This document shows positions 1 through 53,221 of a DNA stretch of 64,000 nt, piece after piece. Location: positions 124,001-188,000 of the forward strand of contig JACEFZ010016149.1 of the NCBI GenBank assembly GCA_014155875.1, written 5' to 3'. The stretch's first letter is position 1, and each line of letters opens with the position of its first letter. This stretch comes from Cepaea nemoralis (Eukaryota > Mollusca > Gastropoda > Stylommatophora > Helicidae). The position numbers and the translations under genes are program-made. The notes below the pieces were generated by a model. That model saw only the letters and a list, made by a program, of their open reading frames with translations. It was not told the DNA's origin and ran no database searches.

Positions 1-230
1 TGCCAAAGTTCAACAGAGAAGGTATCAATTTATGCTTAATAAGTATCTAAATAAACATCTCTGTATAGGTAAACAAAAGCAATAATTTCAGTTATAAGGG
101 GCAATAATGTTGGAATGACAGTAAATTAAAGACAATGCAACATCATATGAAAAGAAGTCGCAGACACATGATTGTAGCCAGGTGCACTACCACAAGACAG
201 GCATAGAACAAGGTTAAACTATACCAGTCA
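1..230. repeat. Direct repeat of 1900-2130 (duplicated snoRNA unit flank)
   Basis: Positions 1-230 are almost identical to about 1900-2130, including the last five bases of a snoRNA copy at position 1 and its flank. The window therefore starts exactly at the edge of another snoRNA copy, and the array grew by segmental duplication. Confidence 0.85.
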
Positions 231-258
231 GACATCTTATGTTTACACAGTTACTCTA

Positions 259-347
259 TGGCAATCAGAAATAATGATGCAATATCAAAACAGAGATTAC
301 AACCCTGTTCAGATCTCTAGCCTAAATACATTATCATCACTTTGCCA
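259..347 (-). ncRNA. Box C/D snoRNA, U28 (SNORD28)-like, copy 1
   Basis: Read on the minus strand, the element opens with TGGCAAA, then a perfect C box (GTGATGA), then the invariant guide TTTAGGCTAGAGAT, a D' box (CTGA), a variable stretch, a D box (CTGA) and TTGCCA, which closes the terminal stem with TGGCAA. This is canonical C/D architecture at 89 nt. Such RNAs guide 2'-O-methylation with fibrillarin, NOP56, NOP58 and SNU13. By the fifth-nucleotide rule the target is the C inside CUCUAGCCUA. From memory this is the invertebrate 18S sequence at the position of human Cm1391, the target of U28. Sense orientation within a helicase intron supports intronic processing. Confidence 0.85.
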
Positions 348-689
348 CAGACAGGTATCAGTTTATGCATAATAAGTTCTAAGTAACAAACATCTCTGAT
401 GAGGTGAAAAAGGTTAGATGCATATCCTTATAGGATGTAGTTAACCCCAGCATTTTTTCGAAAAGCATTCATACCATTATATTATCAAAACCAGTGTTAG
501 GCGGCATTCTCCCAAATTATCGCAGCGGTTTCGAGCGTCATGTGAGGGATTACTAATCACGTTTGGTGGCCCCCTCACCACATTTGGCAGTAATTTGGTA
601 AGGGGGCTGTGCTGCATCTCTTGAGAACAAGCAGCCAACACTAACAATTGTAGCAAGGTGCATTACCATAAAACTAGTTTAAACATGAC

Positions 690-1073
690 CAGTGGTTCTC
701 AATTGGTAGGGAATTCCTCCCTAGGGGGCAATTTTAGGGTTGTTAGGGGAGGAATTAAGATTATTTCAAGATCACGCTAATACAAGAACCGATTCCTTGA
801 TATTGTTTTTCCCTCCATACTTTACGGTTCTGTACTCCTCGCGTTTCTGATATTCGTCTTATAACGTAAGTAGACCCACAAATCACTCTTTATGTAGACG
901 TTTAAACTTGTTCTAGTATGTGTTACTAAAGTTAGCTTCCATTTGTACATATACTATGTAGGGGCAGGGTGGGGGAGGGGGGAATTTATAGGGAGGAAAT
1001 ACGAAAGGGGAGGAATGACATTCTCAACATATGGTGATGGGTGGAAGGGGCCAAAAAATGTTGAGAACTACTG
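690..1073. mobile_element. hAT-type MITE with 8-bp target duplication
   Basis: Terminal inverted repeats CAGTGGTTCTCAA and TTGAGAACTACTG bound a 384-bp non-coding element. The flanking 8-mers AACATGAC (682-689) and AACTAGAC (1074-1081) match at six of eight positions. The paralogous snoRNA unit near 2115 shows the empty site with AACTAGAC once. It inserted into one unit of the snoRNA array. Confidence 0.8.
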
Positions 1074-1119
1074 AACTAGACTGATCAGACAGTCTTGTTA
1101 TGTTTGCACGGTTACTCTA

Positions 1120-1208
1120 TGGCAATCAGAAATATAAATGAAATATCAAAGCAGAGAATACAACCCTGCTCAAATCTCTAGCCTAAACACATTATCATCA
1201 CTTTGCCA
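1120..1208 (-). ncRNA. Box C/D snoRNA, U28-like, copy 2
   Basis: The C box GTGATGA, D box CTGA, guide and TGGCAA/TTGCCA stem are all kept. The D' box reads TTGA instead of CTGA, so D' guided activity may be weaker. Confidence 0.75.
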
Positions 1209-1529
1209 CACTTCAACTGAGAAGATACTGGTTTATACTTAATACAATAAGTACCTGATTAACAGACATTTATAATTAGGTAAACAAAAGCAATCATTTC
1301 AGTTCTAAGGGATAATAATATTGGAATGACAGTAAACTAAAGGCAATGCTACATCCCATGAAAACAAGTTGGAGACACATTATTGTAGCCATGTGCACTA
1401 CCACAAGACATGCAAGAACGAGGTTAAATGAATGGTCAGACATCTTATTTACAAGAGGTTACCCTATGGCAATCAGAAAAAAAACTAATGCAATATTATG
1501 GCAACATGTTTACATACAAGGTTTTACAA

Positions 1530-1619
1530 TGGCAATCAGATAAAAATGATGCAATATCAAAGCAGAGATTACAGCCCTGATCAAATCTCTAGCCTAAATA
1601 CAGTATCATCAGTTTGCCA
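1530..1619 (-). ncRNA. Box C/D snoRNA, U28-like, copy 3 (weakened boxes)
   Basis: The terminal stem, D box and guide are retained. The C box is CTGATGA (first base off consensus) and the D' box is TTGA. It may be a decaying copy. A stem-less partial copy of the 3' half lies just upstream on the plus strand, near 1463-1505. Confidence 0.65.
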
Positions 1620-1812
1620 CTTCGACCGAGAAGATATTAGTTTATACTTAATACAATAAGTACATGAATAATAAGACTGGTCAGACATCTTATTTAAAAG
1701 AGGTCACTATATGAAAATGAAGAAAACATGCAATATCACTGTAACATGTTTAGATACAAGACTACCAAGGCAATGAAGAAAAATAATGCAACATGTTTAG
1801 ATACAAGACATA

Positions 1813-1903
1813 CAGCAATCAGAAAAAATATGATGCAATATCAAAGCAGAGATTACAACCCTGCTCAGATCTCTAGCCTAAATACATTATCATCACTTTG
1901 CCA
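1813..1903 (-). ncRNA. Box C/D snoRNA, U28-like, copy 4
   Basis: C, D' and D boxes and the guide are intact. The 3' stem base reads TTGCTGT rather than TTGCCA, so the terminal stem is shorter. Confidence 0.75.
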
Positions 1904-2156
1904 AAGTTCAACAGAGAAGGTATCAATTTATGCTTAATAAGTATCTAAATAAACATCTCTGTATAGGTAAACAAAAGCAATAATTTCAGTTATAAGGGGC
2001 AATAATGTTGGAATGACAGTAAATTAAAGACAATGCAACATCATATGAAAAGAAGTCGCAGACACATGATTGTAGCCAAGTGCACTACCACGAGACAGGC
2101 ACAGAACAAGGTTAAACTAGACTTGTCAGACATCTTATGTTTACACGGTTACTCTA

Positions 2157-2245
2157 TGGCAATCAGAAATAAAAATGCAATATCAAAGCAGAGATTACAA
2201 CCCTGCTCAAATCTCTAGCCTAAATACATTATCATCACTTTGCCA
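2157..2245 (-). ncRNA. Box C/D snoRNA, U28-like, copy 5
   Basis: Stem, C box and D box are intact. The D' box is TTGA as in copy 2. This copy and its flank are the duplicate of copy 1, about 1.9 kb away. Confidence 0.75.
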
Positions 2246-2547
2246 CACTTTAACTGAGAAGTTAATACAATAAGTACTGATTATCAGACATTTATAATTA
2301 GGTAAACAAAAGCAACCATGTCAGTTCTAAGGGATAATATTGGAATGACAGTAAACTAAAGGCAATGCTACATCCCATTGTAGCCATGTGCACACTTTGC
2401 CACTTCGACCGAGAAGATATCGGTTTATACTTAATTCATTAAGTACCTGAATAATAAGACTGGTCAGACATCTATTTAAAAGAGGTCACTATATGACAAT
2501 GAAGAAAACATGCAATATCACGGTAACATGTTTAGATACAAGACATA

Positions 2548-2636
2548 TGGCAATCAGAAAGAAAGATGCAATATCAAAGCAGAGATTACAACCCTGCTCA
2601 GATCTCTAGCCTAAATACATTATCATCACTTTGCCA
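2548..2636 (-). ncRNA. Box C/D snoRNA, U28-like, copy 6
   Basis: C box GTGATGA, D' CTGA, D CTGA, guide and terminal stem are all present. Near 2390-2402 a deleted unit keeps only the TTTGCCA end of another copy. Confidence 0.8.
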
Positions 2637-2722
2637 CACTTCACCAGAGAAGGTATCAGCTCAGCTGAAAAAGTAACTAAACAACAGACATATTTCTCAT
2701 TAGATAAACAGAAGCAACGATT

Positions 2723-2875
2723 TCTTCTTCTTCTTCGTTCATCCGGAGTTTTTTTCGGATGTGACTGCGTTGTGCCTGTTTACAGCAGAGCTGTGTTCTT
2801 GCGCCGTTAGGCCGACACATCCGACTTCTGCGGGCATTTGTTGACCGGGTTAACCTTCCCGGGGGAAGCAACGAT
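2723..2875 (-). repeat. Fragment of unclassified interspersed repeat family A
   Basis: This stretch is nearly identical to 13627-13770. Read on the minus strand it ends in CTCCGGATGAACGAAG followed by a GAA tail. It is a truncated retroposed copy inserted in the snoRNA intron. The superfamily is not recognised. Confidence 0.7.
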
Positions 2876-3595
2876 TTAAATTCTTATGGACATCAATGTT
2901 GGAATGACGACTATCCAGATGTGGGATGTGTAAGCATATTTAAATATTCATGAATAACTGAACAAATGAATGCTTATGTTCAATCTCAGACAAAGAAAAT
3001 ATGTGCACCAATGACAGTGTTGGACAAAAGTATGGTATAAATTAATTGTAATTTTCCTGATTTAACATACACACGCACAAACGAATGTGTGTCTAGATTT
3101 CATGACAAGCAACATCTACTTCTGTTGCCTTATTCTCATAAGATGCAGCACTGTCCTTAATATGACATTTTCTTATTTTCCTTTCATTGTTCTTATTTGT
3201 TCATCCTTCCATTCTTCCCATTCAGTTATTATTCCTGAATGCAGTCACTGTAGTGTCTTCCTTGTGGTTAGTGTATTTACAGGCCAATGTCGGTTGCCGC
3301 AATGTCCTGCTGTGTTTTCCGTAACAGTTCTGTAAAGCTGCATCACTTTGTGTTATTTTATACTGTTTACATTTCCACAGCTTTACACCAGCTTCTCTTT
3401 ATTTTATTCATACTTTAATTTGGCAGAAGTAGGCAATGCTGCTCATCATGAGAATAAGCTGCAACATTGCAAACATTTGGCAGTGCTCATCTTATGACAG
3501 TTAAGCACTAACATTGGCAGAGAAGCACCACCATAAAAAACCTTACATTTACTGCTTATACAGAGTTAAAATCAGCCATCCGTTTGTTGTTAGTA

Positions 3596-3685
3596 TGGCA
3601 ATCAGGACAAAAATTCGGTAAAATCAAAACAGAATTTCAGCCCTGCTCAGATCTCTAGCCTAAACAAATTCTCATCACTTTGCCA
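3596..3685 (-). ncRNA. Box C/D snoRNA, U28-like, copy 7
   Basis: C, D' and D boxes, stem and the 13-nt guide are preserved, while the segment between D' and D is strongly diverged. This shows that the D' guide, not the D-proximal stretch, is what has been kept. Confidence 0.8.
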
Positions 3686-4169
3686 GGCTGTAAAAGTTTT
3701 TTTCAAAAATCATCTTGCCTATTCCAACTGAGTTTATGCACAATTTAAATGGAGCAGCTAAACATGTAGGTCCTGATTTGCTTAGGTTATGACACCCACC
3801 TCGATTCGTGGACAGTTGGGATTTTACAAAAGAAAGGTATGGTAAGTCCCCTCATGATCCAGGGGTAGTGGATAAGATGACCAGTCTTCTCAGCCTCCCG
3901 TGAGCACATTGCGTGAGTACTGGCAATTCATGGGCAGTTGGAAACTGATAAGCCGGCTAAACAGCTCCTCGTCCAGAATTGTCCCCAAAATTTAAAAATA
4001 CACCCGTACAATGAATATTTATAGCAAGTGTGATTTTGCATGTTCACATTTGGATCTATGTCGATGATATGAAGTTTGTGAATTTGTGTTGAGATTCTCA
4101 GTGTGTGATCTATAGGAGGGAGACCACCATGAAGTATGAAACAGGATTAAACGAAGCTTGATTGTACTA

Positions 4170-4259
4170 TGGCAATCAGAATACAAAATTATGCAAAGCC
4201 ATAACAGGTTTTATAGTCCTGCTCAGATCTCTAGCCTACACATTCTCATCACTTTGCCA
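4170..4259 (-). ncRNA. Box C/D snoRNA, U28-like, copy 8
   Basis: All boxes and the stem are intact. The spacer between C box and guide is one base different in length from most copies. Confidence 0.8.
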
Positions 4260-4375
4260 GAAATTTGTTTATGCATTAAAAACAGGCTGTCCAAATAAGT
4301 TTGCTAAATACATTGTAATGTCCCTGATTAATTGAATGAATACTAACGACATGCAGGTACTGATCGGGTGAATGA

Positions 4376-4475
4376 GAAAAGTCATAAAAACTCCGCCACG
4401 GAGCAAACATAGCAGGGGGGTTCTGATCGTCAGAAGAGTACCTTCCCCGAGTATTCCGGACTTTTAACTAAAATG
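4376..4475. repeat. SINE-like fragment (family also at 62460-62620)
   Basis: It shares the block ATAAAAACTCCGCC plus downstream GTCAGAAG and CCTTCCCC elements with the reverse complement of 62460-62620. It is short and diverged. Confidence 0.4.
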
Positions 4476-4503
4476 TCCCATTAATTGAACCAAACCCAAT
4501 ATT

Positions 4504-4862
4504 ATTGAATAACAGTGGACGTAAAGAGAAAGATTAAAGTTGTGGCAGTCTTGCTAATGTAGCTGAAGTATACACCAGTGTTGTAAACTGTCAGATCGCT
4601 GGCAATGATGCACCTCCAGATAACAAGGCTCACACAAGACAACAGGGGCACTACTATTTCCGTTTGTATATGAACCCACACACTCTTTACGTTGACTAAT
4701 AATAATGTTAAGAACATGCAGGTGCAGACAGAAATAGTAGGACAAGTTGAAATGTATTTGAATAACCCTTGGACAGAAGGAAAGAAATGTGACAGTCTTG
4801 TTAGCGTAACTATACACTAATGCTGTAAACTGCCACACTGCAGACCACCATGGCACAGAAGA
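4504..4862. repeat. Two diverged direct copies of an ~85-bp segment
   Basis: The segments 4515-4600 and 4775-4850 share GTCTTG(C/T)TA and TGTAAACTG blocks in the same order. A further short relative (ATGTTAAGA.CATGC) occurs near 6409. They look like remnants of the duplicated snoRNA-unit flank. Confidence 0.45.
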
Positions 4863-4901
4863 GGTTGTAAAGACATAAGAACTATGTGGTTATCTGTTGT
4901 A

Positions 4902-4989
4902 TGGCAATCAGAAAATTGATGCAATGTCAAAGCAGGCATTAGGGCACTACTCAGATCTCTAGCCTAAACAGATTTTCATCACTTTGCCA
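4902..4989 (-). ncRNA. Box C/D snoRNA, U28-like, copy 9
   Basis: GTGATGA, CTGA (D'), CTGA (D), guide and stem are intact. The region between the D' and D boxes has several substitutions. Confidence 0.8.
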
Positions 4990-5227
4990 AAATGAGGAGA
5001 TGAATTATTATTAATGACTTTAAAAGGTTGTGCAAATAAAATTTTAAATAAAGGTTCCTACTTAGCTACTGTTATTAAACACAAGTCATAATGAAGTGGG
5101 TCAGTTCCAGCCTTTCAGGAGAGGTGTGTGAAAGGGATGTGTAGTGTCTGTAGATCTTTTCTCCCTTTATAGCTGACATATGAGAAATTTTGAGGATATG
5201 AAAGGAGTTGCATTCATGACAAAACAA

Positions 5228-5555
5228 TAATATAAGATATGCGAACGATACAGTATTGATTGCTGACAACAAGCAAGATCTACAACATTTATACAGCGAG
5301 AAACTAGGAATTTAATTGTAAGAAACCAGAGATCCTGGTCGTCTCCAAGAAGAAAGAAATACCACATTGTAACATCTAAGTGAATGGAAATAATCTTAAA
5401 CATGTGAATCGGTATATCTTTGAACAGTTGTAACATCTGATGGAAGATGCCTTGCAGAGATTAGATCAAGAATTGCCACGGCAAAGGTGGCCTTCTGCAA
5501 AATGGAAAACATACTTACCAACAAACAGTTGTCAATTGCAGTGAGAAAAAGAGAG
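5228..5555 (+). pseudogene. LINE reverse-transcriptase fragment (RTE/Jockey-like), antisense in the snoRNA intron
   Basis: Frameshifted translation gives the RT core as RYANDTVLIAD (catalytic YADD altered to YAND), then TSDGRCLAEIRSRIATAKVAF and ILTNKQLSI. These match the RT-to-thumb region seen again at 46735-47060 and 47620-47935. Several stops break the frame. It is a dead fragment. Confidence 0.7.
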
Positions 5556-6020
5556 TTGTAGTCCGAGCTTCAATCCTAGACCAGTTGCTGACCAAGGTTG
5601 GGATGGGGGGTAGATAGAAAAGATTATTTACAGAACACCCAATGAAGCAGTTTGAGAAATACATTAAATCTTCTCTCGGAAATTCATTCTGTGCACAGAA
5701 AACGGCAGTCATCATGAGCAACTAGACACATGCTCACATGTTCAAGTGGGAGACCTCGGTCTAGCTGTGCGAGAGATCTTTCTTGTGTGTTGCAATGCTG
5801 GCTTATTCATGTAGGTCTTAGCCTTAGCTAGACAGTGTAGCACGCAAAAGTAGTGCTCACCTACAGTAACTGATTACACTTACCTTTAAACACAATATTC
5901 AACAGTTCTACATCAAGTGAAGCTACATCAAGTGAACTTTATATATACATATCAAACAGGATACAATCTTGAAGATGGTACAAGTCAGGTTTAAGATACT
6001 GTGTAGGTACAAGAGTTCTT
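5556..6020. other. Intronic DNA without recognised features
   Basis: I see no open frame, repeat or RNA motif here beyond intronic AT-rich sequence; 4990-5227 is likewise featureless. Confidence 0.5.
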
Positions 6021-6106
6021 TGGCAATCAGAAAAATGATGCAATATCATAGCAGGCATAAGCACAGCTCAGATCTCTAGCCTAAAAACATTTTCATCATC
6101 TTGCCA
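6021..6106 (-). ncRNA. Box C/D snoRNA, U28-like, copy 10
   Basis: The C box is ATGATGA, also consensus (RUGAUGA). D', D, guide and TGGCAA/TTGCCA stem are intact, and the RNA is slightly shorter at 86 nt. Confidence 0.8.
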
Positions 6107-6488
6107 GAGATAGATAGATTGAACGGCGGCACCAAATAGATTGCACAATTTATTACTTGGCATATTTTAATGGGCCTTGATTAAAGCAACACGCTGAAAC
6201 ACACAACACTCAGACCAGACAATAAACTGTGACATCTATATTTTTGTGTTTGACAAATGATATTTTTTATCAGTTTGTGTTTTTACAATGGGAAATGAAT
6301 GTGTAGTGAAGTCATTGTCAGTTATACTTCAAAAGAAGCGATCCAATTAACAGAGGAATCTGAAGATATACAAATGCAATATCGGTTTTTACAAACTGAT
6401 GTTATGATGTTAAGAGCATGCTGTTGCAGAGAGGATAAGCAAGAATAGTTATACATATATTAATTAACAAAACAAATAAATATAAAAT

Positions 6489-6800
6489 GGAGGTCAGCAT
6501 GACCAAATTGATAAGAGCACTCACTCTTAAACTTCCAGTGTGCTGATGTCGACCTAGCAGGTTCAACCCCTAGACTAGTCAGTTGGACTATAATGCTCAC
6601 TTCTCACCCTAGATTTGGGGATATAATTTACATTCACCTAATGGCTAGGGACACTAGTAATGGAGAAAGCTAATCCACATGCTAGGGACACTGGTAATGG
6701 AGAAAGCTAATACACATGCAAAAATCAGTCATATGTACTGATATGGTAACACAAGTATGAAATTTTTTGAGTTCAAAGTGAGCGAACGAAAGGGAAAAAA
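6489..6800 (+). mobile_element. tRNA-derived SINE, family S1, copy 1
   Basis: The head resembles a long-variable-arm tRNA (Leu/Ser type) with a B box at AGGTTCAACCCC. The body matches copies at 37524-37813 and 45630-45908. The 3' end reads CAAAGTGAGCGAACGAAAGG, like the tail of the RNase-H LINE at 18010-18040. A ~38-bp internal segment is tandemly duplicated near 6640-6720. Confidence 0.75.
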
Positions 6801-6994
6801 ATCTGACCAGATACCCTATAATTAAATTACTAAAGCTAGCACAAATATATGCTAACGGTTTAACTGGCCAAGTTAAGAACAATGATGGATCTCAAGAGAA
6901 CAAGCTGCCAACACTGACAATTATAGCCAGGTGCACTACAACAAGAACTGAGTTCAACGAGACTAGTCAGGCTTGTTTACAAGAGGTCACTCAA

Positions 6995-7076
6995 TGGCAA
7001 TCAGAAAGTCATGCAATATCAAGGCAGACTTCAGCCTGCTCAGATCTCTAGCCTAACAGTTTTCATCACTTTGCCA
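6995..7076 (-). ncRNA. Box C/D snoRNA, U28-like, copy 11 (first in transcription order)
   Basis: C box GTGATGA, D' CTGA, D CTGA, guide and stem are present in a compact 82 nt. It is the copy nearest the DDX39B-like exon. Downstream on the minus strand, around 6945, lies the conserved GTTGTAG/TGCACCTGGCTA block also found after other copies. Confidence 0.8.
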
Positions 7077-7212
7077 GTCACGAACAAGCGACCGTTCCTA
7101 TAAGAGTTGTGTCCATTTACAAAGAGGAGCAATATCTGCATCTTTGACACAGTGAACAGCATGCTTGCTTGCAGGCTGAGTGGTCATGCTTGAATCCCCA
7201 TAATTTCAATCT

Positions 7213-7882
7213 TTAACCCTTTGCAGGGAGGACGTTTGTCCGTTTTTTAGCTCTGAACGGGCAAGATTTTTCAGGTTTGGTAAAATTTTGGTTACGTTAG
7301 TAAAAACATGACATCTAAGGTTTTAGTCAACAGATTTTAGTGAAATAAACAACAAAATGAAGGAAAATGCATGCAGATTATTTTATTAATGTAATCCAAT
7401 GTTGCTGGTTATCCACAAGTGAACACAAATATTTACAAAATGCAACATAGTTTGGTGATTGTCGGTCATTTATACAGCAATTTACAAACATTTTCAGAAT
7501 CATAATCACTTTCTTTAAAGTCCAAATTCACGACTGCTAATGCTGATCACTGATATCTAGCTCCAATTAACAGTCAACTTCGTGCCCTTCAATGTCACTT
7601 AATTGAACCCAGCGAAATCTCCGCTATCACTTAACTTGAAGAATCGTAAAAATCCATTTTGAAATACAAAGCGTAAGACTCCCAAAAACTATTCAAAAAA
7701 ACTTTCAAAGTACACGCTTGCAAATGTCGGCCATATTGTTAAGCTATCGGCAAAACCGAAAGTAGACAATCGGAAGTCTCGGAAAGCTGCGAGATCGTGT
7801 TTTTACAATACTTAGTAATCATGAACGTTTTGCCCGTTGTGGGGTAAAAACGTTCTAGGGTGTTTGCCAGGTAAAGGGTTAA
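7213..7882. mobile_element. piggyBac-like MITE flanked by TTAA
   Basis: TTAA duplications at 7213-7216 and 7879-7882 flank ends starting CCCTTTGC and (reverse) CCCTTTACC. A second inner inverted block, AACGGGCAA, sits about 40 bp in on each side. There is no transposase frame. The TTAA target and CCCTTT ends are diagnostic of piggyBac-related non-autonomous elements. Confidence 0.75.
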
Positions 7883-8679
7883 AAAAAAAAGAGTAATAGT
7901 GCTTCCAGATCAACTCGCCATAAATTAGGTACCAGGGAATGTACTGAAAAGTAATTGCGACCGGTGTATTACTGACAAGATTGTCCGTCAAGCATGGACT
8001 ATAAAAGGCTAGTAAAGGTTACTTTATGGGGCCTTTGTGTGGAGAGATTGTGTTGTGACTTGTGTTAATTTTTGGACTGCGTGATTCAAACTACAGTACA
8101 ATTTTCCCAGAGATCACTATCGGGCATAATGGAGCTACGAAGTTTGTGCCTCGGGTAATGCTCTTGGCAAGTGACTTGCCCTTCTACTACAGAGATACTG
8201 AGCAAGGTGGGGTAAAACCTACTGCAATAAAGTAGATAATTCCAGAGTTAATCTAGAACTTAACCTGACACATACTAGTCCATCTTAATTTTTTATAGCC
8301 GTGTTTGCTTTCACATCGTCGTTTTCCCATTACCTCTACCCATTTCAATCTAAGAGACGTTATAATATGACCCATCCCAGCTTCAGAATAACAATCTTGT
8401 GTCCGAATCTGCCACATTTAGGATAGCTGAAAGAGATTGTTGTCCACAGGAAGGACATAGCTATTGTATGATGCGAGGCTGTGCATATATAGTCAACTCT
8501 ACAATTTTCACTGCCATGGATTTTGATGTGCACAGAGAGCACAAGTTTTATTCTCACCCTGAAGCTAAAAGAAAGAACCCAAACATGACATCTCACAACC
8601 GAAAGAAAGGTACCAAAAATGATATTATGCAACTGAAAGAAAGGACACTAACATGACAACTGCCAAAACATTATCTTAC
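7883..8679. other. Proximal part of the host intron, no recognised element
   Basis: No snoRNA boxes, open frames or known repeats are evident between the piggyBac MITE and the donor site. Confidence 0.5.
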
Positions 8680-8884
8680 CTTCTGATGGATGCTCAAAGC
8701 CACAGTCGACAATAGCCCGCAACAACTCTGGTTTCAACAGAAAATCACGAAAGCCAGAGCTGTGGATGGAGACGTAAGTTCCCTTAACATCTTTTTTAAC
8801 TTGAGTATCTCCAACTGCATTTTCTACTACTGGTTCATTTTCATCATCGTCATAATCAAGGATATCTCTCATATCATCTGCCAT
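8680..8884 (-). CDS. DDX39B: First coding exon of spliceosome RNA helicase DDX39B/UAP56 homologue
   Basis: DDX39B (UAP56, Hel25E) is a DECD-box ATPase of the nuclear TREX and U2 snRNP assembly pathways. The exon encodes 68 residues plus one base. It begins [18 protein letters not shown] and contains [19 protein letters not shown] and [15 protein letters not shown], which match the family N-terminus and the Q-motif entry almost residue for residue. The acceptor TTATTTTCAG precedes 8906, so 22 nt of 5'UTR lie on this exon. The donor GTAAGATA follows 8680 in phase 1, which suits a Val codon next. An upstream non-coding exon must lie to the right. The catalytic DECD and SAT motifs would be on exons outside the window. 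Confidence 0.9.
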
Positions 8885-8906
8885 TGTGATTCTTGGATAA
8901 AGGACA
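8885..8906 (-). other. 5'UTR part of the DDX39B-like exon and its splice acceptor
   Basis: On the minus strand a pyrimidine-rich tract ending in CAG (8909-8907) precedes 22 nt of leader and the ATG at 8884. The start was chosen because it matches the family N-terminus; the longer open frame to the right runs through the acceptor. Confidence 0.75.
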
Positions 8907-9061
8907 CTGAAAATAATCATAAAAATTAATAAAGTCAATTGCTGAAATGAATGAAGATGTAGAATAATAATGTATATTTCCTCTTCTACTTACACAACAC
9001 AGAGCCATGGCTAGATGCCTGCCTTCAGGCATGTAAGAGGGTTCTTTAGTTACTTGCAAAA

Positions 9062-9205
9062 TGACTTGATTCATGACAAAATGTAATATGTCTATGTCAT
9101 GAAGTAATGTAACATGTCTACATCATGAAGTAATGGCACATGTCTACACCATAAAGTAGTGTCACATGTCTAGGTAATAAAACATGTCCATGAAATCATG
9201 AAACA
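9062..9205. repeat. Short degenerate tandem repeat, ~31-bp unit
   Basis: About four to five imperfect units carry ACATGTCTA and ATGAAGTAAT motifs. No coding content. Confidence 0.6.
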
Positions 9206-10339
9206 TGTCTATCTCCATCATGCATATCCAGCCAGAAAGTTGTTTGTTCTGCTTATGTCACAGCCTGGAAAAGCATCAGCTCATGGACTGAAACATTGAT
9301 CGCAGGATTGTGCTATAAGCATGATCGCTCCATCAGCAAATATGTTCTTTACTATTATATTACTTTTCCCACATTCTCCTTACATAATTCAAGGTTCACA
9401 ATGAATAAAAATTGACTCAATTGGCAGATTATTATTTTGGTAATTAATGTGGATATGGCAGATAAAATTATTGTTTGAAGTGTCAGCCACAGCTTTTTCA
9501 AGGACAGAAAAATCCAGGCGGCCTGCCGCGTGGTGGCAACTGAAAATTTCTACATGGCGCTTTAGTTTTCAGTTATTTTCTTTGTATTTGCAAAAATAAA
9601 TATGCTGATTCCTGAGAAAAACGGGCTGGCTCCTCACTTTATTCCACCTCTGAACTTTTTCTACGACTAACAGTAACATTTAATTCAATTTATCATTTTA
9701 TTGTTCCTTTCATTTGGCAACTGGTATTAAGTAATACTTTTTTGTGCTAACAAATTACTACTAAAAGAACATTCGTGAATGGTTGGATTTTAGTTTTCAT
9801 TGCCTGTTACAACATGTGTGGCAGGTAACAGCTTCTTTGAATCTCTTTTACGAGCCCCGGTGACACACTGGCATGTTAAACCTTACTGAAAGAGGCAGAA
9901 GCGTACACCTATTTAGGTGGTAGTCTTTCTATGTGAAGAAAAATTGCAAGGGGAACAGTGAGCACCAAACTTAGAATTTATAATTGTAACATGAATAATA
10001 ATGCATGGATCAGTAATATGGTGAATGACTGAAATGATTATTTTATTAATAAACTACAAACATTTATTTAATTGGTGCCTGCGAAAATAGTGAAAGTCAA
10101 TCACAGCCAAATGGGCGCCCATTATTTAGAATTCTTATCGCATATTTTTGGTTTTATTAGTTGTGGTTAGATTTAATCTCAGGTAGATTTTGCTGGGCAA
10201 TTTTACATTCAGTAGTTTGCCATTGTTTCTAAATGAGAAGTCAAGTCCACCTGACGTGTATGTGGAATAAAACTTGCAAACAGCGAGTGATTTGTACCTC
10301 TCTGCCAAACAGATACTTATTTGTATAGTTCAGTTGTAA
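9206..10339. other. Region without recognised genes
   Basis: I see only a weak SINE S2-like stretch (minus strand) around 10170-10240, containing the GTAGTTTGCCATTG block, and no coding potential. The DDX39B 5' non-coding exon and promoter could lie here or farther right, but I cannot locate them. Confidence 0.4.
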
Positions 10340-11728
10340 CACTTTGCTGACCAAATTCGATGACCAAAGTCGAATTAGCGACATGCGGATTTCAAACAGA
10401 CGGCCTTACCGATAGCCACTGAATCCGGCTTCATCCAGTTGTTTATATTATTCCAATATAGCTGCCTCCATGATTCATGCTGTTTAGAGCCGTTTAGAGT
10501 GTGCATTAGTGAAATTTTGTAACTGTTTGTGGCAAGTGAATATTCAGCATATTTGTCATGTCTGATGATGAAAACCAGACTTGTAGTATAGAGGATTCTG
10601 CCTCTGCCAGCAAATTTGAAGCTGAAAGCGATGATTCTTGGCTAAGCAGAGATGCTGTAGTGAATGATATGACTGAAAGTAGCTACAACGATGTTGAATA
10701 GATGACGGATGTGATGAAGGTACGCCGAAGAAATAAGTGGGCATGGCAAGAGACCAGAACATTTCTAAGGCTGAAAATGTTTGGAAATGGGAAAAGGCTC
10801 CTCAAAATGAACTTATTGAGCTTGACAATCTTCCTCCATACATAGAACAACAGGGTGTTATCTCATCTCGTCTCTCTCATCTCATCATGTTCCTCTTGTA
10901 CCTTGTGGTGTCGAGGTGAAGTATAAACATCATGAGAGTGCCCAATTATGGGCTTCATATATCGATATTCCCATGGACTCTGCTATTCCCTTCGTCCAAC
11001 ATTTAAGTGGTCACCCTCTTCCTCTGTTTCCATCTGGTGTGTACATCATTGCTTGTTGTGGTATGTCAGGGGTGTTATGTCAGGGTGTTTATGTCAGACA
11101 CAATTGGGTTTATGCCCATTAATTTTTTCAAACTTATTTTCCCTGACACTGCCATAGATCTGATCAACAGGTATGGTGAAAATCATCTTTCTCAGTACAC
11201 TTTGCCAAATACAAAAAGTTTACTTGCGATCATACTGATGCAATTGAAATTTCTGCATTCATATGCCTTCAGATTGGTATGGGAATGTTGTAAAACAGCA
11301 GTTTCAGACTACTGGTGTAAGAATTTTTGGCTGAGTGAAACAGCATATTCGAAGGCCACGAGTCGAAACAGATACCAACAGCTTCACAGAAATCATTTCT
11401 GACAATAATGATTTGAGCTTATTTTATTCATCGCCAAACCATGTCCCTAATATTTTATATGCTTTCACATTGAACAAATTCACTAAAAACTAGGAAAAGA
11501 TGGTTTTAAAACATCTGAAATTTCTATAGGCAAACAAATTCGAGATGGCCACCATGATCATGTGACAAATTTGCATAAAATATATTTTTTCATGTCATGG
11601 TGCTCTGAAAATTTCAAAACCCTATGTTTGTAAATTTAATTTTTAAAAACCAGTCATTTGTAAATAAATCCTCAAAAACCCTTGGTAAAGGGAGACAGTA
11701 ATGCTCTGGATTGCTGGTCAGTAAAGTG
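10340..11728 (+). mobile_element. Degenerate, internally deleted piggyBac transposon
   Basis: Ends CACTTTGCTGACC (10340) and GGTCAGTAAAGTG (to 11728) form a 13-bp inverted repeat with one mismatch. The right flank is TTAA (11729-11732) and the left is a mutated GTAA. At 1.39 kb it is about half the length of an autonomous element. Confidence 0.75.
10559..11402 (+). pseudogene. piggyBac transposase relic (N-terminal part)
   Basis: A start at 10559 opens an acidic N-terminus (MSDDENQTCS...) typical of PGBD proteins, then stops. In another frame, about 11110-11402, the block INFFKLIFPDTAIDLINRY, later YWCKNFWLSETAYSKATSR, corresponds to the conserved start of the piggyBac DDE domain region. The catalytic aspartates are absent because the element is deleted downstream. 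Several frame changes and stops make it non-functional. Confidence 0.75.
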
Positions 11729-11732
11729 TTAA

Positions 11733-12239
11733 CAGTTAAATTTATACAAGAGACAAGAACATTGCAGTTACTAGTTATAGACATATTTCACGTGAACGAA
11801 AAAAGAAGGTTCAGTTTTATTATTATTAACCCACGGAAAGCTAATTGGCCCACATGGTTTGCTCACTTTGAAATTTCTAGGGATCAATTACTCCAAGCAT
11901 TAATTAGTCATCATCATCATGTGCCATACCGATAAGCGTGGGCGGACATGTTTTGGTATCACACAATTGATAGCCTATTATTCCGAATATCATACTGTAC
12001 TTCTCTTGTGTCACAATAAATTAGCATAAAGAAGATATGTCAGAATACATGATCACCGAATTAAAATGTAAAGCCAGTAAAGGGGCGCAGCAATGCAGTG
12101 CAATATTCAGCTACCTCTTTTTCTTTTCCTTTGATCAGATATATCGAGAGTACAAAATTCCCTGATTATTTCAAGATCGCATTAAAACAAAACAATTATT
12201 AGATATTTCCAAGCAATGTAGACATAAAACTGACAAAGT
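11733..12239. other. No recognised gene; short LINE remnants
   Basis: A LINE tail-like stretch (ATATTTCACGTGAACGAAAA) lies near 11780. An RTE-like 3' end (CATCATGTGCCATACCGATA) lies near 11915. Nothing else is supported. Confidence 0.4.
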
Positions 12240-12720
12240 AGCGTTTTCCATCGTGCCGTGACCCGAAATTGAACCGGAAGTTATGTACCACGTCACCCTG
12301 GACTTTTCCATTGCGTCGTCAAAAATGGCTTCTGTAAAACCCATTCATGCTTCCCACGTCATTCATTCATTCAGATATCACGTGACAATAACAGACATCA
12401 TCTGGGGTTTTCCAGGAAAGGTCAGTTTAATATTCTGTGCACAGCGATTGGTTGAAATTATCATAGCTTTTTAACACATTTAATTATTTGATGTAAATTA
12501 AGTAATTTTATGTTTTAAAGCTTGTGTACATAACCTGTACATTTTTTTATGTATATTCGAATTCTGCACCCATTTTTACATTTATATGGAAAGTTTCATT
12601 GATTATGGTCAACTATGGTGGTAGAAAAAAATTATTTCTGCTGACATGTTTCGTCTTTGTTCATGAAAAGCAAAGATGGCGGCCGACGTGGATACCGATC
12701 GCAATCCGATAACATCCTGC
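12240..12720. promoter_or_regulatory. Possible promoter-like segment (ETS and YY1-type motifs)
   Basis: ACCGGAAGT at about 12272 is an ETS consensus. CAAAGATGGCGGC at about 12670 is a YY1-type motif often found just downstream of housekeeping start sites. Both lie upstream of the minus-strand helicase exon. No exon could be tied to them, so this is a weak inference from motifs only. Confidence 0.2.
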
Positions 12721-12765
12721 AATTTGAACTAGTAAACTTAAAGAGAATACGTATTTAAAGATCGA

Positions 12766-12860
12766 AGTAACTATACACAAAATTTTGTGAGTAGTATGAG
12801 CCGCTATATACAAAAATGTGTGGCTGGTCACATGATTATTCAACTGGTCACGTGATGTCT
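12766..12860. repeat. Short palindromic MITE-like repeat (relative at 21290-21410)
   Basis: CTATACACAAAATTTTGTG, GAGCCGCTAT and GGCTGGTCAC blocks recur in inverse order at 21290-21370. Inner inverted repeats suggest a small non-autonomous DNA element. Confidence 0.45.
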
Positions 12861-12907
12861 AACTTCCTTTTGACTACATTATTAATGTTCGTGGAGCTAT
12901 CATTGTG

Positions 12908-12979
12908 TTCTCAGTGGTGTAGTGGTTAGTATCTCCGCCTGTCACCAGGGAGGCTGGGGTTCGACTCCCCGCTAGCCAA
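12908..12979 (+). tRNA. tRNA-Asp(GTC)-like pseudogene or SINE head
   Basis: The D arm (AGTGGTTAGTATC), anticodon loop CTGTCAC and T arm (GGGGTTCGACTCCCC) follow tRNA-Asp. The acceptor stem pairs at only about half its positions and the anticodon stem has two mismatches. It is followed by a T run. Probably not a working tRNA. Confidence 0.55.
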
Positions 12980-13015
12980 TTTTTTTTTTCATTATTTAAA
13001 TTTTTAATCAGTCAA

Positions 13016-13270
13016 TCAGGTGCCGTCTCCACAATGAAGGTTGGCTGCAATGGATCTCCAACACTGTCTTTCGCCTTGGCTGTACATTGTCAGGCTGATG
13101 TTCGTCCATCTCTTGATGTTATCTTCCCACTTGTATCGTTGTCTAACTCTTGCTCGCTTGCCCTCAACCTTGCCCTCCAGTATGATTTTTATAAGAGTAT
13201 CATGTATTTTAACAATAACATGGCCGAAATATTTCACTTGCGTCCTCTATTTCTTCCGTCAACTCTCTCG
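13016..13270 (-). pseudogene. 3' fragment of an RTE/BovB-like LINE
   Basis: The minus strand encodes KYFGHVIVKIHDTL, EGKVEGKRARVRQRYKWED and NIKRWTNISL, the diagnostic C-terminal segment after the RT thumb, ending at a stop at 13016. Everything upstream of it is missing. Confidence 0.7.
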
Positions 13271-13626
13271 CTCTCTCTTCATTCCCAGTTTTTCTAGGAC
13301 CTCTGCATTTTGATTTTGATTTGTTTTTGTTTCCATAAAATACAACATATTATTCGTCTGTACATATCCACATCTCCAGGGCTTCTAAGCGACTCTCTAG
13401 TTGCTTGTTTTAGGAACTAAAATATAGAAGTGAGAAACTCGAAGCATCTGAATAAAGTGTTCTCTATGGGTGTGCGGTAGCTGCCGTGGGGGGGCCACCC
13501 CCAGGAAACGACGGAGTGATCAAGTCTCGGATGAATCCAATAGATGTCTTTGTGAATTTTATTTGCCAAATAAAATATCACTATACGTAGAGTGTGTCCT
13601 TTTCGACAAATATTGTCTTTGTGAGG

Positions 13627-14073
13627 TTTCTTCTTCTTCGTTCATCCGGAGTTTTTTTTCGGATGTGATTGCGTTGTGCCTGTTTACAGCAGAGCTGCGT
13701 TCTTGCGCCGTTAGGCCGACACATCCGACTTCTGCGGGCATTTGTTGACCGGGTTAACCTTCCCGGGGGTTTCTTAGGACGTTTGACTCTCACTGTTGTG
13801 GTGTTATCCCCCATCCCAGCTGGTCCATATAGAACAGCCAAAGATCCTGGTCAGCCCTCAAGGGAAGGCAGGGGCAGACCATGGGCATTCCCCGCCATCC
13901 AAGGAGGCTTCCATACTTGCAGAGCCGATACATAGCGCTCTGGTACTGGGCTCACCCAAGGAATCGTCACGTCCTGCACATGGCTGCTTAGCCTCACTTC
14001 CGTATATTGGGCCTTCCGTTCACCATAGGCTGTTCTTCCGGAAACCAGAAGTATGCAGTCTGCAGATGACATC
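13627..14073 (-). repeat. Interspersed repeat family A, near-complete 3' part
   Basis: On the minus strand it shows open, unrecognised coding-like text (including WKPPWMAGNAHGLPLPSLEG), then CTCCGGATGAACGAAG and a GAA tail at 13627. Copies lie at 2723, 23880, 29920/30663 and 42320. The tail resembles that of the RNase-H LINE, so a LINE-mobilised origin is plausible. Class unknown. Confidence 0.65.
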
Positions 14074-14460
14074 CACACAGTGAGCTTTCGATTCGGACTT
14101 TCCATGTAATGGATTTGCTATCCAAGCAATATTCCATTTCGTGCCACTAGGACACTTTTCCACCTTTTATGAAGCCCACACAGTGGGCTTTTGATTCTGA
14201 CTTTCCACGTAATGGATTTGCTATCCAAGCAATATTCCATTTCGTGCCACTAGGACACTTTTCCACCTTTTATGAAGCCCACACAATGGGCTTTTGATTC
14301 GGACTTTCCACGTAATGGATTTGCTATCCAAGCAATATTCCATTTCGTGCCACTAGGACACTTTTCCACCTTTTATGAAGCCCACACAGCGAGCTTTCGA
14401 TTTGGACTTTCCACATAATGGATTTGCTATCCAAGCAATATTCCATTTCATGCCTCTGGG
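14074..14460 (-). repeat. Tandem repeat, 103-bp unit, ~4 copies
   Basis: Units starting CACACAGTG recur at 14074, 14177, 14280 and 14383. They form the 5' part of repeat family A. A homologous shorter array precedes the family A copy at 42045-42320. Confidence 0.85.
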
Positions 14461-14495
14461 TCTTCATGCACCTTTAAATGTCAACCTGTATGTAG

Positions 14496-14700
14496 TTAAA
14501 GTAAGCTGCGGTCAACTTGAGCTTGTTGATATCTCCATAGAGCTTGTCCTTCAAATGAAGCAGGTGTGGGCCAAAATATCTTTCTCTGTTCTGCATACGT
14601 TGGGCAATCCTGCAGCAAATGTTTTGCTGTCATTTTTCCAGTTCTACAATTACATTCATCGGTATCTCCTATCTTTAGTTTATTGAACAAGTGGTATTTC
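14496..14700 (-). pseudogene. LINE C-terminal zinc-knuckle segment
   Basis: The frame contains CNCRTGKMTAKHLLQDCPTY, a C-x-C...H...C motif found after RNase H in this LINE group, and ends at a stop at 14496. It is out of frame with the RNase H part at 14770, so an indel lies between 14700 and 14770. Confidence 0.7.
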
Positions 14701-14769
14701 AGCCTGTTATGTCCTGTGCGGAGTCTGAAGATTGCTACTTGTTCTCTTCGGTCGAGTTTGTAATATGCA

Positions 14770-15531
14770 TCATCCTTCTGATGGCCTGGATGCTCTAGAT
14801 TCCCATTTGGTTCTATAAGTGCTTTTTATCAACCTCTTTGCCTCATTATAGGTTATGTCTATGTCAGGCTGTGGTAGTCGTCCGCCCTCTTTTGCCAGTC
14901 TGTCAGCCTCTTCGTTTCCAGGTATACTGCAATGTGATGGGATCCACTGTATTACAACTTTTTTGGATTTCTGGCATAGACCATGGAGTGCTGCTCTTAG
15001 GTCAGTTAGTTCTGTGCTGTTATTGCTCTTGAGTATTGAGACAGCTGACTTTGCATCTGTGAAGATAGCTATTTGCTTCTCTTTATTTTCCTCCATCAGG
15101 AGCATTTCTGCTGCAGTTTTCAAAGCCTCTACCTCCGCTTTGAAGTTACTTGAAAATTTTCCAGTTGCCATTGAATGTGTTTTTTTCACTCCATTTTTTA
15201 AATTTAGGAGAATTCCTCCTCCTCCATTCTCTATTGAATTTTTGGCTGATCCATCTGTATATGCATGGGTCCAATTCCTGCTTGGGTAATGTTCTTTTAT
15301 GTAGTTTAGGGTTATTTCTCTTCTTTCGGTTTCATGCTGAGTGTTCTTTTTCTCAATACCAGGAATGTTTTCTATCATCTCAGGCAGTTGCTGCTGTCTC
15401 CAAGCTGGGAAGTTGTGTGCATTGTGTATGGGCTTGACTGTTGATATGTTAAGTATAGGATCTGCCCTAATCCTTCGTTTTGCAGTTTCTACAAAGTTGC
15501 TACGCTTCAGTCTTCCCTTTCCAAAACCATT
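14770..15531 (-). pseudogene. RNase H domain of the outer LINE (3' portion of split ORF2)
   Basis: The frame carries AYTDGSAKNSIENGG (first catalytic Asp), the Glu in FKAEVEALKTA, TDAKSAVSIL (second Asp) and IQWIPSHCSIPGNEEADRLA (final His and Asp region). Upstream it is open to 15531 and continues the amino-acid line broken off at 18053 (YNRF on both sides of the nested insertion). RNase H degrades the RNA strand during target-primed reverse transcription. Confidence 0.8.
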
Positions 15532-15543: not shown

Positions 15544-18040
15544 AAGATAGCAATATCAAAATTAGTCCAGAGAATCAACAAGAGATTCGAGAGAAACGAC
15601 AACATACAGGACAGAAGGAAATAGTACATGAGGTTCTGGAGGCACCCATCACAATCAGCGAACTGGAGCTAGCCATATCAAAACTGAAAATGAGAAAGTC
15701 ACCAGGAGCTGATGGTATCTCCAATGAAATGATCAGGAATCTAGGAACAGAGGCCAAAACAAAGCTGTTGCAGATCTTCAATAACAGCTGGACCTTAGGC
15801 AGTGTTTCCACAAGCCTGGAGAGAAGCAATCATGATACCCCTCCTAAAATCAGGGAAAGATGGTTCCATTGCCTCTAGCTACAGACCAATTAGCCTCACC
15901 AGCTGTCTCTGCAAAACACTGGAGCGCATCATTCAATCACAGACTGCAGTGGTACATTGAAAGTAAAAACATCCTTGTGCCACAGCAGGCTGGCTTTAGG
16001 CAGTGCTACTCTACGGAAGATCAGACAACCTACCTCTCTCAAGAAATTGAGGATGCATTTCCAAGAGAAGAAGCTGGTGCTTGCGGCATGGATAGATCTG
16101 AAGAAAGCCTTTGACAAAGTCTGGAAAGAAGGTCTGATGAAGAAACTGAGAAACTGCAAGTCAATGGAAGAATGTACAAATGGGTGAAAGCATACTTGCA
16201 CAACAGAAGAGCCCGAGTACAGATAGACGGACTCAAGAGCAAGAAAGTACTACTGCGTCACGGTGTCCCCCAGGGCGGAGTCTTGTCCCCCACACTTTTT
16301 CTAATCTTCATCAATGATCTTGTTGCTCACCTACCGCATGGAATTAAAGCGGCAATGTACGCCGATGACCTGGTTCTATGGAGCACAAATGAATATGCAT
16401 CAGTGGCCACTAGATTGCTACAAAGAGCTGTAGATACATTTGCTGCATGGGCAAATAGATGGTGTGTCAGCATAAACACTGACAAGTGCAGCACCACCCT
16501 ATTTACCCTCTCTCCAAAACAAAAGGCAGGGATCATCCAGATAAATGGAACACCCCTAAGAGAAGATAAAGAACCAACATACCTTGGAGTAACATTTGAT
16601 GCAAGCTGACATGGAGAAAGCACATCAACAAAGCAGTAGCAAAAGCCAGAAGGAAAATAGCCATCCTGAGAAAGCTAAGTGGAACCACATGGGGAGCCAG
16701 TACGAAAATACTTAGCAAAGTTTACCAACAGAGCATACGACCACACCTGGAATATGGGTCAACTGCGTGGTGTTCAGCATCAATACCACACTACAAGAGT
16801 TGGACAAGGTGCAAAATCAAGCACTTAGAGTCACCACAGGAGGGATGAGATCAACCCCTATAGTGGAAATGGAGAAGATGGGGAGGACACAGGCACTGAG
16901 TGAGCGCAGAGATACGAAAACGCTAATACAAGCAGAAAAGTTCCTCAGCTTGCCAGGCCACCCTATGAAGAACAGATTCGAAAACCTAGCTATGGGGGCG
17001 GTTGAAAAGAAGTAGTTTTATCCACCAGGCCAAACGACTCTGCAGAGAAACCACTGATCTGCCCACAGTTGGTATCCCCCTAACAACTATTCCAGAGCGA
17101 ACTCCATGGAAAGATGAGCATAGACTATCATTACAAATCCAGACAAAAGTGAGAGGAATATTTGACAAGGAAGAACAGAACAGTGTGCAGCGCAGAACAG
17201 CCACTCTCAGCTTCCTTGATGAAGAATACCCACAGGACCTCTGGATCCGAGTCTACACAGATGGGTCAGCACAAAATGCTGTTCGAATGGAGGAGCGGGA
17301 GTGTACATAGAATACCCAAATAATACTAGGGACACAGCCAGAGTACCGACAGGAAAGTACTGCCATAACTATGATGCCGAAATTGAGGCCAATCAAGATA
17401 GCAACAGAGAAATTATTAAATAACAGCAATGGTACACAACCTGTGGTGCTACTAACAGATGCAAAATCAGTACTCGAGGCGCTCCTCTCTGGGAAATTGC
17501 CAGTACTAAGGACACTACTTTCTGAACTTAGCAGTCAGCATAAAGTCACCATACAGTGGATACCATCCCACTGTGGAGTACCCGGAAACGACAGAGCTGA
17601 TCAATTGGCTAAGGAAGGAGCCAAAGAGGAACAGCCTGATGTGCCCGTTACATACCACCAAAAGAAAAGAATGATCAAATCAGTCAGAAAGCCACCAAAA
17701 CCTGCTCAAGATGACTACCACATTATGGACAGACCAGAACAAGTCATTATTCTGCGCCTCAGAACAGGACACAATAGATTACGCAACCACATGTATACAA
17801 AATTCAAGATTGGTGAAACAGCCATGTGCACATGTGGATTGGCGTCGCAGACAGCAGAGCACATACTCCAAGACTGCCCAAAATATAACATATCTAGGCA
17901 AACCTTCTGGCCTAGAGAGACGACGGTGGAAGATAAACTCTATGGACCACTGTGTGAACTGAAAAAAACAGTTCAATTCATGCAAGAGACGACATTGCAG
18001 ATATAGACATATTTCAAGCGAACGAAAGAAGAAGAGGAAG
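15544..18040 (+). mobile_element. 5'-truncated nested LINE copy of the same family
   Basis: It starts inside the RT-upstream region and ends in TTTCAAGCGAACGAAAGAAG plus a GAA-rich tail at 18040. It is flanked by an exact 12-bp duplication. It landed in the coding frame of the outer, minus-strand element of the same family. Confidence 0.9.
15570..18006 (+). pseudogene. Broken RT-RNase H frame of the nested LINE
   Basis: In order, and in changing frames: KLKMRKSPGADGISNEMI, QAGFRQCYSTEDQTTYLSQE, AAWIDLKKAFDKVW, HGVPQGGVLSPTLFLIFIND, MYADDLVLW (RT catalytic Asp pair) and YLGVTFDAS with a stop near 16609. Then come RVYTDGSAQNAV and TDAKSVLEALL of RNase H, VTIQWIPSHCGVPGNDRADQ, and the knuckle CTCGLASQTAEHILQDCPKY. 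At least four frame breaks (near 15830, 16609, 17010, 17310) disable it. Confidence 0.85.
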
Positions 18041-18052
18041 AAATCTGTTGTA
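18041..18052. repeat. Target-site duplication, right copy
   Basis: Exact partner of 15532-15543. The length fits the staggered cut of an APE-type LINE endonuclease. Confidence 0.9.
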
Positions 18053-20836: not shown

Positions 20837-21225
20837 GAATTAAGTTACGTTGCACTGCTTTGTCAAGCCTGTGGCTCAGTACATCCGATTTCGACAAGCA
20901 TTTATTCGGGATGCTTTCCCTAGCCTTTGACTGTCCCCAGTCTACCTACAAGGCAGCAGGTTTCACGTTGCACTGCTTTGTCAAGCCTGTGGCTCAGTAC
21001 ATCCGATTTCGACAAGCATGTATTTGGGGTGCTTTCCCTAGCCTTTGACTGTCCCCAGTCTACCTACAAGGCAGCAGGTTTGTGTGTCTCTTCGTCTGGT
21101 CCCTCTCCCTTGACCTGTCCGACATGGGTGGCCCTACCAGTAGCTGTGCTACCGTCGGCATAGCTCTTGGGGTCATTGGGACGCACAAGCCCCTCTACCT
21201 CGTCACGGTGGACACACAGCAGAGG
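20837..21225 (-). promoter_or_regulatory. LINE 5'UTR with ~118-bp tandem duplication
   Basis: Blocks at 20849-20966 and 20967-21080 are near-identical (CGTTGCACTGCTTTGTCAAG start), a monomer structure typical of LINE promoters. The distal part (21082-21225) is homologous to 23613-23760, next to the 18S fragment. Confidence 0.7.
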
Positions 21226-26983: not shown

Positions 26984-27057
<74 letters not shown>

Positions 27058-27966: not shown

Positions 27967-28035
<69 letters not shown>

Positions 28036-38344: not shown

Positions 38345-38522
38345 AGTTTACTCCACAGGAAAAGTAACACCAATACATCTGGAACAAGACAAGCTGCAGA
38401 AGCTTCCGGATTAGCAAAGCAATGCTCAAACTCCTAAGTTATGTCCCTGGATATTAAGCTTCATATTGATATTAAATTTTTCCAGTGTTTAATTATTGTT
38501 TGTTTAAATATCTTAATTACAG

Positions 38523-42748: not shown

Positions 42749-42784
42749 GATTTAGGTGTTGATTACATTCCTTTATGATGTGCA

Positions 42785-45607: not shown

Positions 45608-45629
45608 GAAGTCAATCAGGTTAGCATGT

Positions 45630-53211: not shown

Positions 53212-53221
53212 GTTCCTCTTC

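Follow-up and report, generated by a model that had tools for sequence, protein, structure and literature searches.

Eleven same-guide box C/D snoRNA genes, probably in one DDX39B/UAP56 intron of the land snail Cepaea nemoralis, as a likely amplified guide for 18S rRNA

Animals mostly carry one small nucleolar RNA (snoRNA) per intron. This layout is predominant but not absolute, as 48 of 400 annotated human snoRNAs pair within single introns (PMC4234469), and two snoRNAs in one intron give rise to sno-lncRNAs (snoRNA-type long non-coding RNAs) in human cells (PMC4234469; PMC11028025). Families of related copies have been described in other arrangements. Four isoforms (a-d) of DmSnR60, a C/D snoRNA that guides ribosomal RNA (rRNA) modification, are located in introns of the Drosophila mfl/Nop60b gene (PMC1821038), chicken snoRNA paralogues occupy adjacent introns (PMC2653536), and SNORD115 and SNORD116 form large tandem C/D arrays in 29 and 48 introns of SNHG14 (PMC11608373). 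In this work, a stretch of 64,000 nucleotides from the land snail Cepaea nemoralis (contig JACEFZ010016149.1, positions 124,001 to 188,000, hereafter the window) has been analysed, and its minus strand was found to contain, between positions 259 and 7076, eleven complete genes for box C/D snoRNAs (82-91 nt) with the same guide, probably inside a single intron of the helicase gene DDX39B/UAP56.

The snail array resembles DmSnR60 in that rRNA-guiding C/D copies arose by local duplication inside one protein-coding gene, but DmSnR60 comprises four copies with one gene per intron, whereas the snail array includes at least eleven, apparently in one intron. SNORD115 and SNORD116 are found one per intron in a non-coding host and are without known targets, unlike the snail copies, which lie in one intron of a protein gene and have an rRNA-matching guide. 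More than one snoRNA per intron is a feature in common with sno-lncRNAs, although these are pairs and the snail array consists of at least eleven copies of the same guide. No multi-copy snoRNA array within a single intron was recognised in the open-access literature, as judged by titles, the first part of abstracts and some passages; a fly paper from 2004 reportedly mentions 'multiple intronic gene clusters' of H/ACA snoRNAs in its title. Because of the prevailing one-per-intron layout the array is unusual, and what is new is the arrangement itself, one rRNA guide amplified at least eleven-fold, apparently within a single animal intron. The analysis points, with a probability of roughly three in four, to a local tandem array of functional guides that would direct 2'-O-methylation of 18S rRNA from one DDX39B/UAP56 intron.

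The order of elements within each copy is TGGCAA, C box, guide, D' box, a short hairpin loop, a loose C' region, D box and closing stem. Box D is CTGA in the eleven copies. Box C is GTGATGA in nine copies, ATGATGA in c02 and CTGATGA in c09, and hence ten copies fit RTGATGA, the general box C/D criterion (RUGAUGA in the RNA), with c09 as the exception. The D' box is CTGA in eight copies and TTGA in c07, c09 and c10, three copies as the sequence-only reading of this DNA had already stated. The TGGCAA/TTGCCA stem that the same reading had described as common to all copies is exact in ten; the 3' end of c08 is TTGCTG, which pairs through two G-U wobbles, so that a paired stem is present in 11 of 11. 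A covariance model (R1) built from these same eleven copies was used to scan the whole window, and the eleven scored 85.7-116 bits. The only other R1 row at E ≤10 reached 15.7 bits (43065-43165), and therefore no further complete copy is present in the 64 kb. An unfiltered R1 scan of positions 1-9000 produced 29 rows, eleven of them at 85.6-116 bits and 18 that did not exceed 14.1 bits. The 13-mer TTAGGCTAGAGAT allowing up to two mismatches occurred 11 times, whereas 100 shuffled sequences contained it 1.52 times on average and never more than 5 times. The earlier count of at least eleven copies on one strand is thus borne out. A twelfth copy is probably cut by the left edge of the window, because a repeat of 96.6% identity (1-349 with 1899-2247) begins at the very first base. 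The copies, classified into an old and a young group as explained below, and their fragments are the following:

6995..7076, minus strand: c01, old group, 82 nt, guide at 7044-7055, 85.7 bits with R1
6021..6106, minus strand: c02, old group, 86 nt, guide at 6072-6083, box C ATGATGA
4902..4989, minus strand: c03, old group, 88 nt, guide at 4955-4966
4170..4259, minus strand: c04, old group, 90 nt, guide at 4227-4238, base past the 10-nt duplex differs
3596..3685, minus strand: c05, old group, 90 nt, guide at 3651-3662
2548..2636, minus strand: c06, young group, 89 nt, guide at 2602-2613, top R1 score (116 bits)
2157..2245, minus strand: c07, young group, 89 nt, guide at 2211-2222, D' box TTGA
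1813..1903, minus strand: c08, young group, 91 nt, guide at 1869-1880, 3' stem TTGCTG, wobble-paired
1530..1619, minus strand: c09, young group, 90 nt, guide at 1585-1596, D' box TTGA, box C CTGATGA
1120..1208, minus strand: c10, young group, 89 nt, guide at 1174-1185, D' box TTGA
259..347, minus strand: c11, young group, 89 nt, guide at 313-324
1..5, minus strand: probable twelfth copy, last five bases in the window (5' stem TGGCA), from the 96.6% edge repeat
About 1467..1496, minus strand: truncated guide-less copy, 3' end with D box and stem (self-alignment 1110-1146 with 1457-1496)
About 1712..1738, minus strand: truncated guide-less copy, decayed D box (self-alignment 1674-1738 with 2119-2185)
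About 2493..2523, minus strand: truncated guide-less copy, decayed D box (self-alignment 2457-2523 with 6960-7024)

The helicase gene proposed earlier as the host has been identified as DDX39B/UAP56 by an exon match, with 72.6% identity over 62 amino acids (window 8681-8866) to human DDX39B and an E value of 7.6e-25 against DDX39B chains in PDB. Human DDX39B also hosts snoRNAs. The eleven copies are placed on the same strand as the helicase gene (sense), to the left of the donor at 8679 and after the first coding exon. A search for further DDX39B similarity in 1-8680 gave no match at E ≤10, the exon at 8681-8866 being the sole match in 1-8906; as no other DDX39B exon is found left of 8680-8906, the copies probably share a single intron of at least 8,679 bp. 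In the host upstream region (8800-15500), no other snoRNA was detected as an Rfam row at E ≤1. The host features are these:

8680..8906, minus strand: first coding exon of DDX39B/UAP56, ATG at 8884, ending ...GFEHPSE, 5' splice site GT from 8679
1..8679, minus strand: host intron, probably single, 3' end outside the window
5883, minus strand: strong cryptic 5' splice site (AAG/GTAAGT) in the gap between c02 and c03, score 12.5, which could end a hidden exon

Hidden exons are possible in five of the ten gaps between copies, and each copy might occupy its own short intron, separated from the next by unannotated non-coding exons as in an SNHG-like host. Such a one-copy-per-intron layout is known for mammalian SNORD115/116 (PMC11608373) and for the fly mfl gene (PMC1821038). 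When the best donor of each gap was scored (donors only) with a donor matrix, the site at 5883 exceeded the host's own donor (AAG/GTAAGA at 8679), 12.5 vs 10.8, and four other gaps had best donors of 7.7-8.9, but the best donor reached only 1.7-5.2 in the c03/c04, c06/c07, c07/c08, c08/c09 and c09/c10 gaps, which makes separate introns for all the copies unlikely.

None of the eleven copies departs from the guide 12-mer TAGGCTAGAGAT, located just before D', whereas the 13-mer TTAGGCTAGAGAT is matched in full by ten of them, c04 (4227-4239) deviating at one end; the statement of the sequence-only reading that the guide is unchanged everywhere is therefore correct for the 12-mer and not for the 13-mer. 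Changes per column were counted by parsimony on a tree of the copies. No change was found in the 12 guide columns vs 67 in the other 80, in agreement with the earlier proposal of selection on a single antisense element. By parts, there were 2 changes in the 12 stem columns (0.17 per column), 2 in the 7 of box C (0.29), none in the 4 of box D and 2 in the 4 of D', and the linkers and the D'-C' loop accumulated 12 in 9, 22 in 19 and 19 in 16 columns (1.16-1.33 per column). When c01-c05 are compared in their ten pairs, identity amounts to 72-85% in the snoRNA and to 17-47% in the 80-nt flanks. In 11 self-alignments, filtered to contain at least 60 flank columns and the full guide, the snoRNA was better preserved than the flank in ten, with p<0.05 in nine; these pairs overlap and are not independent, and their choice by similarity flatters the flanks. 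Selection has preserved the boxes, the stem and the guide of all complete copies, and the simplest reason would be that the dose of the guide matters.

The young copies c06-c11 have long flanks in common (for instance 1074-1640 with 2115-2659 at 79.8%), and therefore the array grew by tandem duplication. The downstream flank of c01 is still similar to the young units (171-347 with 6920-7076 at 71.7%), and a FastTree phylogeny divides the copies into two groups, c01-c05 and c06-c11, with modest support values. An older round of duplication would have produced c01-c05 and a younger round c06-c11 and the edge copy, with flanks copied along, and the three guide-less truncated copies mark losses. 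Retroposition as the source of the copies was ruled out, since the flanks duplicate along with the gene. A SINE-like (short interspersed element) insertion separates c05 from c06:

2724..2864, plus strand: SINE-like insertion with a 13-bp target-site duplication GAAGCAACGATTT, 98% copy at 13628-13769

The same SINE-like family was observed elsewhere in the window, at 13628-13769 (plus strand, 98%) and 42609-42750 (minus strand, 79%), with short pieces near 30767-30824 and 24339-24399.

Tandem growth of this kind could also leave an array as a neutral by-product, with one or a few working copies and the rest as passengers that have not yet decayed. The young copies do sit in repeats with flank identity up to 97%, and the guide-less truncated copies indicate that copies also get lost. 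Nevertheless, the five old copies retain boxes and guide despite flanks at 17-47%, and among the rows of the unfiltered model scan of 1-9000 there was no complete copy with a decayed guide. We regard passenger status for most of the array as quite improbable, and preservation of the guide by selection as the better explanation.

According to the usual rule, methylation occurs at the base that faces the fifth guide nucleotide counted from D'. The snail guide is predicted to pair with 18S rRNA at CUCUAGCCU(A/G), and the predicted methylated base is the second C of GACUC. By counting back from 1869 on the human 18S sequence, this base presumably is 1391 (Cm1391). SNORD28, located in SNHG1, is listed for 18S-C1391 (PMC6466398). 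The target stretch is contained in an earthworm 18S primer as ACGAACGAGACTCTAGCCTGC (PMC2759579) and in a primer for the beetle Batocera as GAGACTCTAGCCTGCTAACT (PMC5825065), and CTCTGGCC is present in the 18S of Trichuris (PMC4146586) and of the beetle Rhyzopertha (PMC9865390). Nine Watson-Crick pairs and one G-U pair are formed between the guide and the earthworm and beetle 18S. The calculated pairing energies with four 18S primers lie between -16.7 and -17.0 kcal/mol, values reached by 0-2 of 1000 shuffled guides, and the earthworm and beetle primers gave -17.0 kcal/mol (0 and 2 of 1000).

Eukaryotic ribosomal DNA was also found in two bacterial assemblies, labelled as Coleofasciculus (L001, containing CTCTAGCCTACTAA) and Rhodobacteraceae (L002, containing CTCTGGCCTACTAA), presumably as contamination. 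The predicted target was the best site of the guide in both 18S pieces, with none of 100 shuffles doing as well in either, an agreement that is partly built in as both were picked with a pattern containing CTCTRGCC. Since all these 18S sequences, from primers and assemblies alike, were found via target patterns, they indicate that the target exists and that no better site is present there, rather than how common it is or that the snail itself has it. In the partial 28S of L002, 33 of 100 shuffles equalled the best site of the guide. The 18S search of viral contigs gave no match at first and then one match (L003), outside rRNA, and the 28S search of viral contigs gave a single chance match (L004), also outside rRNA; in article texts the longest form of the 18S string had no match, and one of the other text matches proved to belong to a 16S probe for bacteria and was left aside. 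The target of the guide is thus likely to be the 18S counterpart of human Cm1391, the U28 site, as the sequence-only reading had suggested and as the 18S of other animals and the count on human 18S support. If confirmed, a Cm1391-type mark would be common to a protostome and vertebrates; a fly study places human 18S peaks 1383-1668 among the human-unique ones (PMC13228274).

The copies resemble SNORD28 (U28) in their box C/D structure and in the predicted target, the counterpart of 18S C1391, and differ from it in the host, DDX39B/UAP56 instead of SNHG1, and in the number of copies, at least eleven. No SNORD28 row was obtained in 1-9000 at E ≤10, the presence of that model in the Rfam library being unconfirmed, and because of this the earlier term 'U28-like' holds as a description of likely function and not of family membership. 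Fifteen of the 18 sub-threshold Rfam rows corresponded to C/D families placed on the copies on the minus strand, which, together with the boxes, stem and conservation, supports the earlier assignment to box C/D genes. The best Rfam row for eight of the eleven copies was snoZ157/R69/R10 of plants (RF00333), which agrees with them in C-box context, CUAGAG core and D' layout, although the snail copies reach at most 39.3 bits vs a cut-off of 55 and the guide core of snoZ157, GGACUAGAG, would match another rRNA site. By the features tested, the copies are box C/D guides, U28 analogues by predicted function and not proven members of the U28 family. In the same window no tRNA was found, and a phage DNA similarity search with its sequence gave no match, as expected for animal DNA.

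The resemblance to snoZ157 bears on another possible target, a 28S site in GACUCUAGUCU, which we take to be the region of human 28S Cm3680 and yeast snR76, and which the array might chiefly guide instead of the 18S site. GACUCUAG is common to the 18S and 28S sites, the pairing energy with a piece of human 28S is -14.8 kcal/mol, matched by 6 of 1000 shuffles, and snoZ157, the best sub-threshold Rfam family, has GGACUAGAG before D', fitting CUCUAGUCC. Pairing of the snail guide with 28S needs G-U wobbles, however, and does not reach the strength calculated for invertebrate 18S (-17.0 kcal/mol), and the G opposite the 28S U is constant in the 11 copies, whereas A, as in snoZ157, would be expected at this place in a 28S guide. 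A chiefly 28S role is consequently very unlikely, and 18S is preferred as the predicted target. That guide identity reflects gene conversion between copies and not selection is hardly credible, because, although tandem copies recombine and truncated and shuffled units exist, the linkers of the same copies differ freely (67 changes in 80 non-guide columns) and conversion tracts would have to span less than the gene, with the guide at their centre.

Several results weigh against functional 18S guides preserved by selection. An unchanged run of 12 columns arose in 186 of 20,000 shuffles of the column counts, and the youngest pair (1-349 with 1899-2247) showed no extra conservation of the snoRNA (p=0.94). 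Covariation in the D'-C' hairpin was not above shuffles (148 of 500), with one compensatory pair, in c11. Human 18S pairs worse, at -11.8 kcal/mol, with 41 of 1000 shuffles as good, and the partly built-in agreement of L001 and L002 must be counted here too. Comparison with Rfam, which the sequence-only reading had proposed as a check, gave no row at gathering score in the whole window, the best sub-threshold row being the 39.3 bits of snoZ157 (RF00333; cut-off 55).

As functional guides, the copies would be transcribed along with the helicase gene and then spliced out within the intron, boxes C and D would recruit the proteins of small nucleolar ribonucleoproteins (snoRNPs), and fibrillarin would methylate 18S at the guided C. 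The current view of snoRNA release in animals is that the spliced intron is trimmed from both of its ends, a route that suits one snoRNA per intron. In the snail array, the outer two copies would shield the rest, so the inner copies would have to be freed by an endonuclease cut or through hidden exons, or else persist within a chained sno-lncRNA. An extended flank stem of the RNase III type was considered and rejected; beyond the 6-bp stem, the flanks pair just patchily in all 11 copies, and as the stems are not extended into the flanks an RNase III stem is not suggested. A tentative proposal, doubtful though possible, is that the intron is a natural poly-snoRNP, in which exonucleases, after splicing, would be stopped by the copies at either end and a stable RNA of at least 7 kb would remain, bearing a chain of at least eleven same-guide snoRNPs that may act as a unit in the nucleolus or be cut into singles by a dedicated nuclease.

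Other elements were observed in the rest of the window. A LINE (long interspersed element) frame with endonuclease and reverse transcriptase (18014-20839) is 99% identical to a protein in ENA, and this identity indicates recent activity of the element in this or a near species. An intact 1072-aa reverse-transcriptase/endonuclease frame with a zinc-finger-like C-terminal tail is located at 34010-37228, its best relatives being about 60% identical. Each of these two transposon proteins had at least 120 matches, and among those listed the ones with a named organism came from Batillaria, Littorina and Branchiostoma, so that a gastropod source is likely from these matches. Two long minus-strand frames at 50899-55438 resemble, by eye, gag/pol of Gypsy-type long terminal repeat elements. 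A 33-bp tandem repeat present 43 times (44181-45609) is open as a 479-aa minus-strand frame of RPRTFLGTRFS repeats, and a simple-repeat block with a 20-bp unit in about 174 copies (26061-29517) stays open for hundreds of codons in at least two minus-strand frames. An exon-like stretch, EYTSLNNTIDELNRYLDRWDERHDQLRAHIREAI (38513-38809), marks a second host gene in the window, presumably of the UPF0184/bublin family.

An intron with at least eleven copies whose flanks have been erased by age is a natural test of how inner copies get freed, and the array also tests whether selection can act on the dose of one guide. Should the poly-snoRNP proposal be true, an animal would have a new means of making more of a single rRNA methylation guide, in an amount coupled to the output of a helicase gene for mRNA export.

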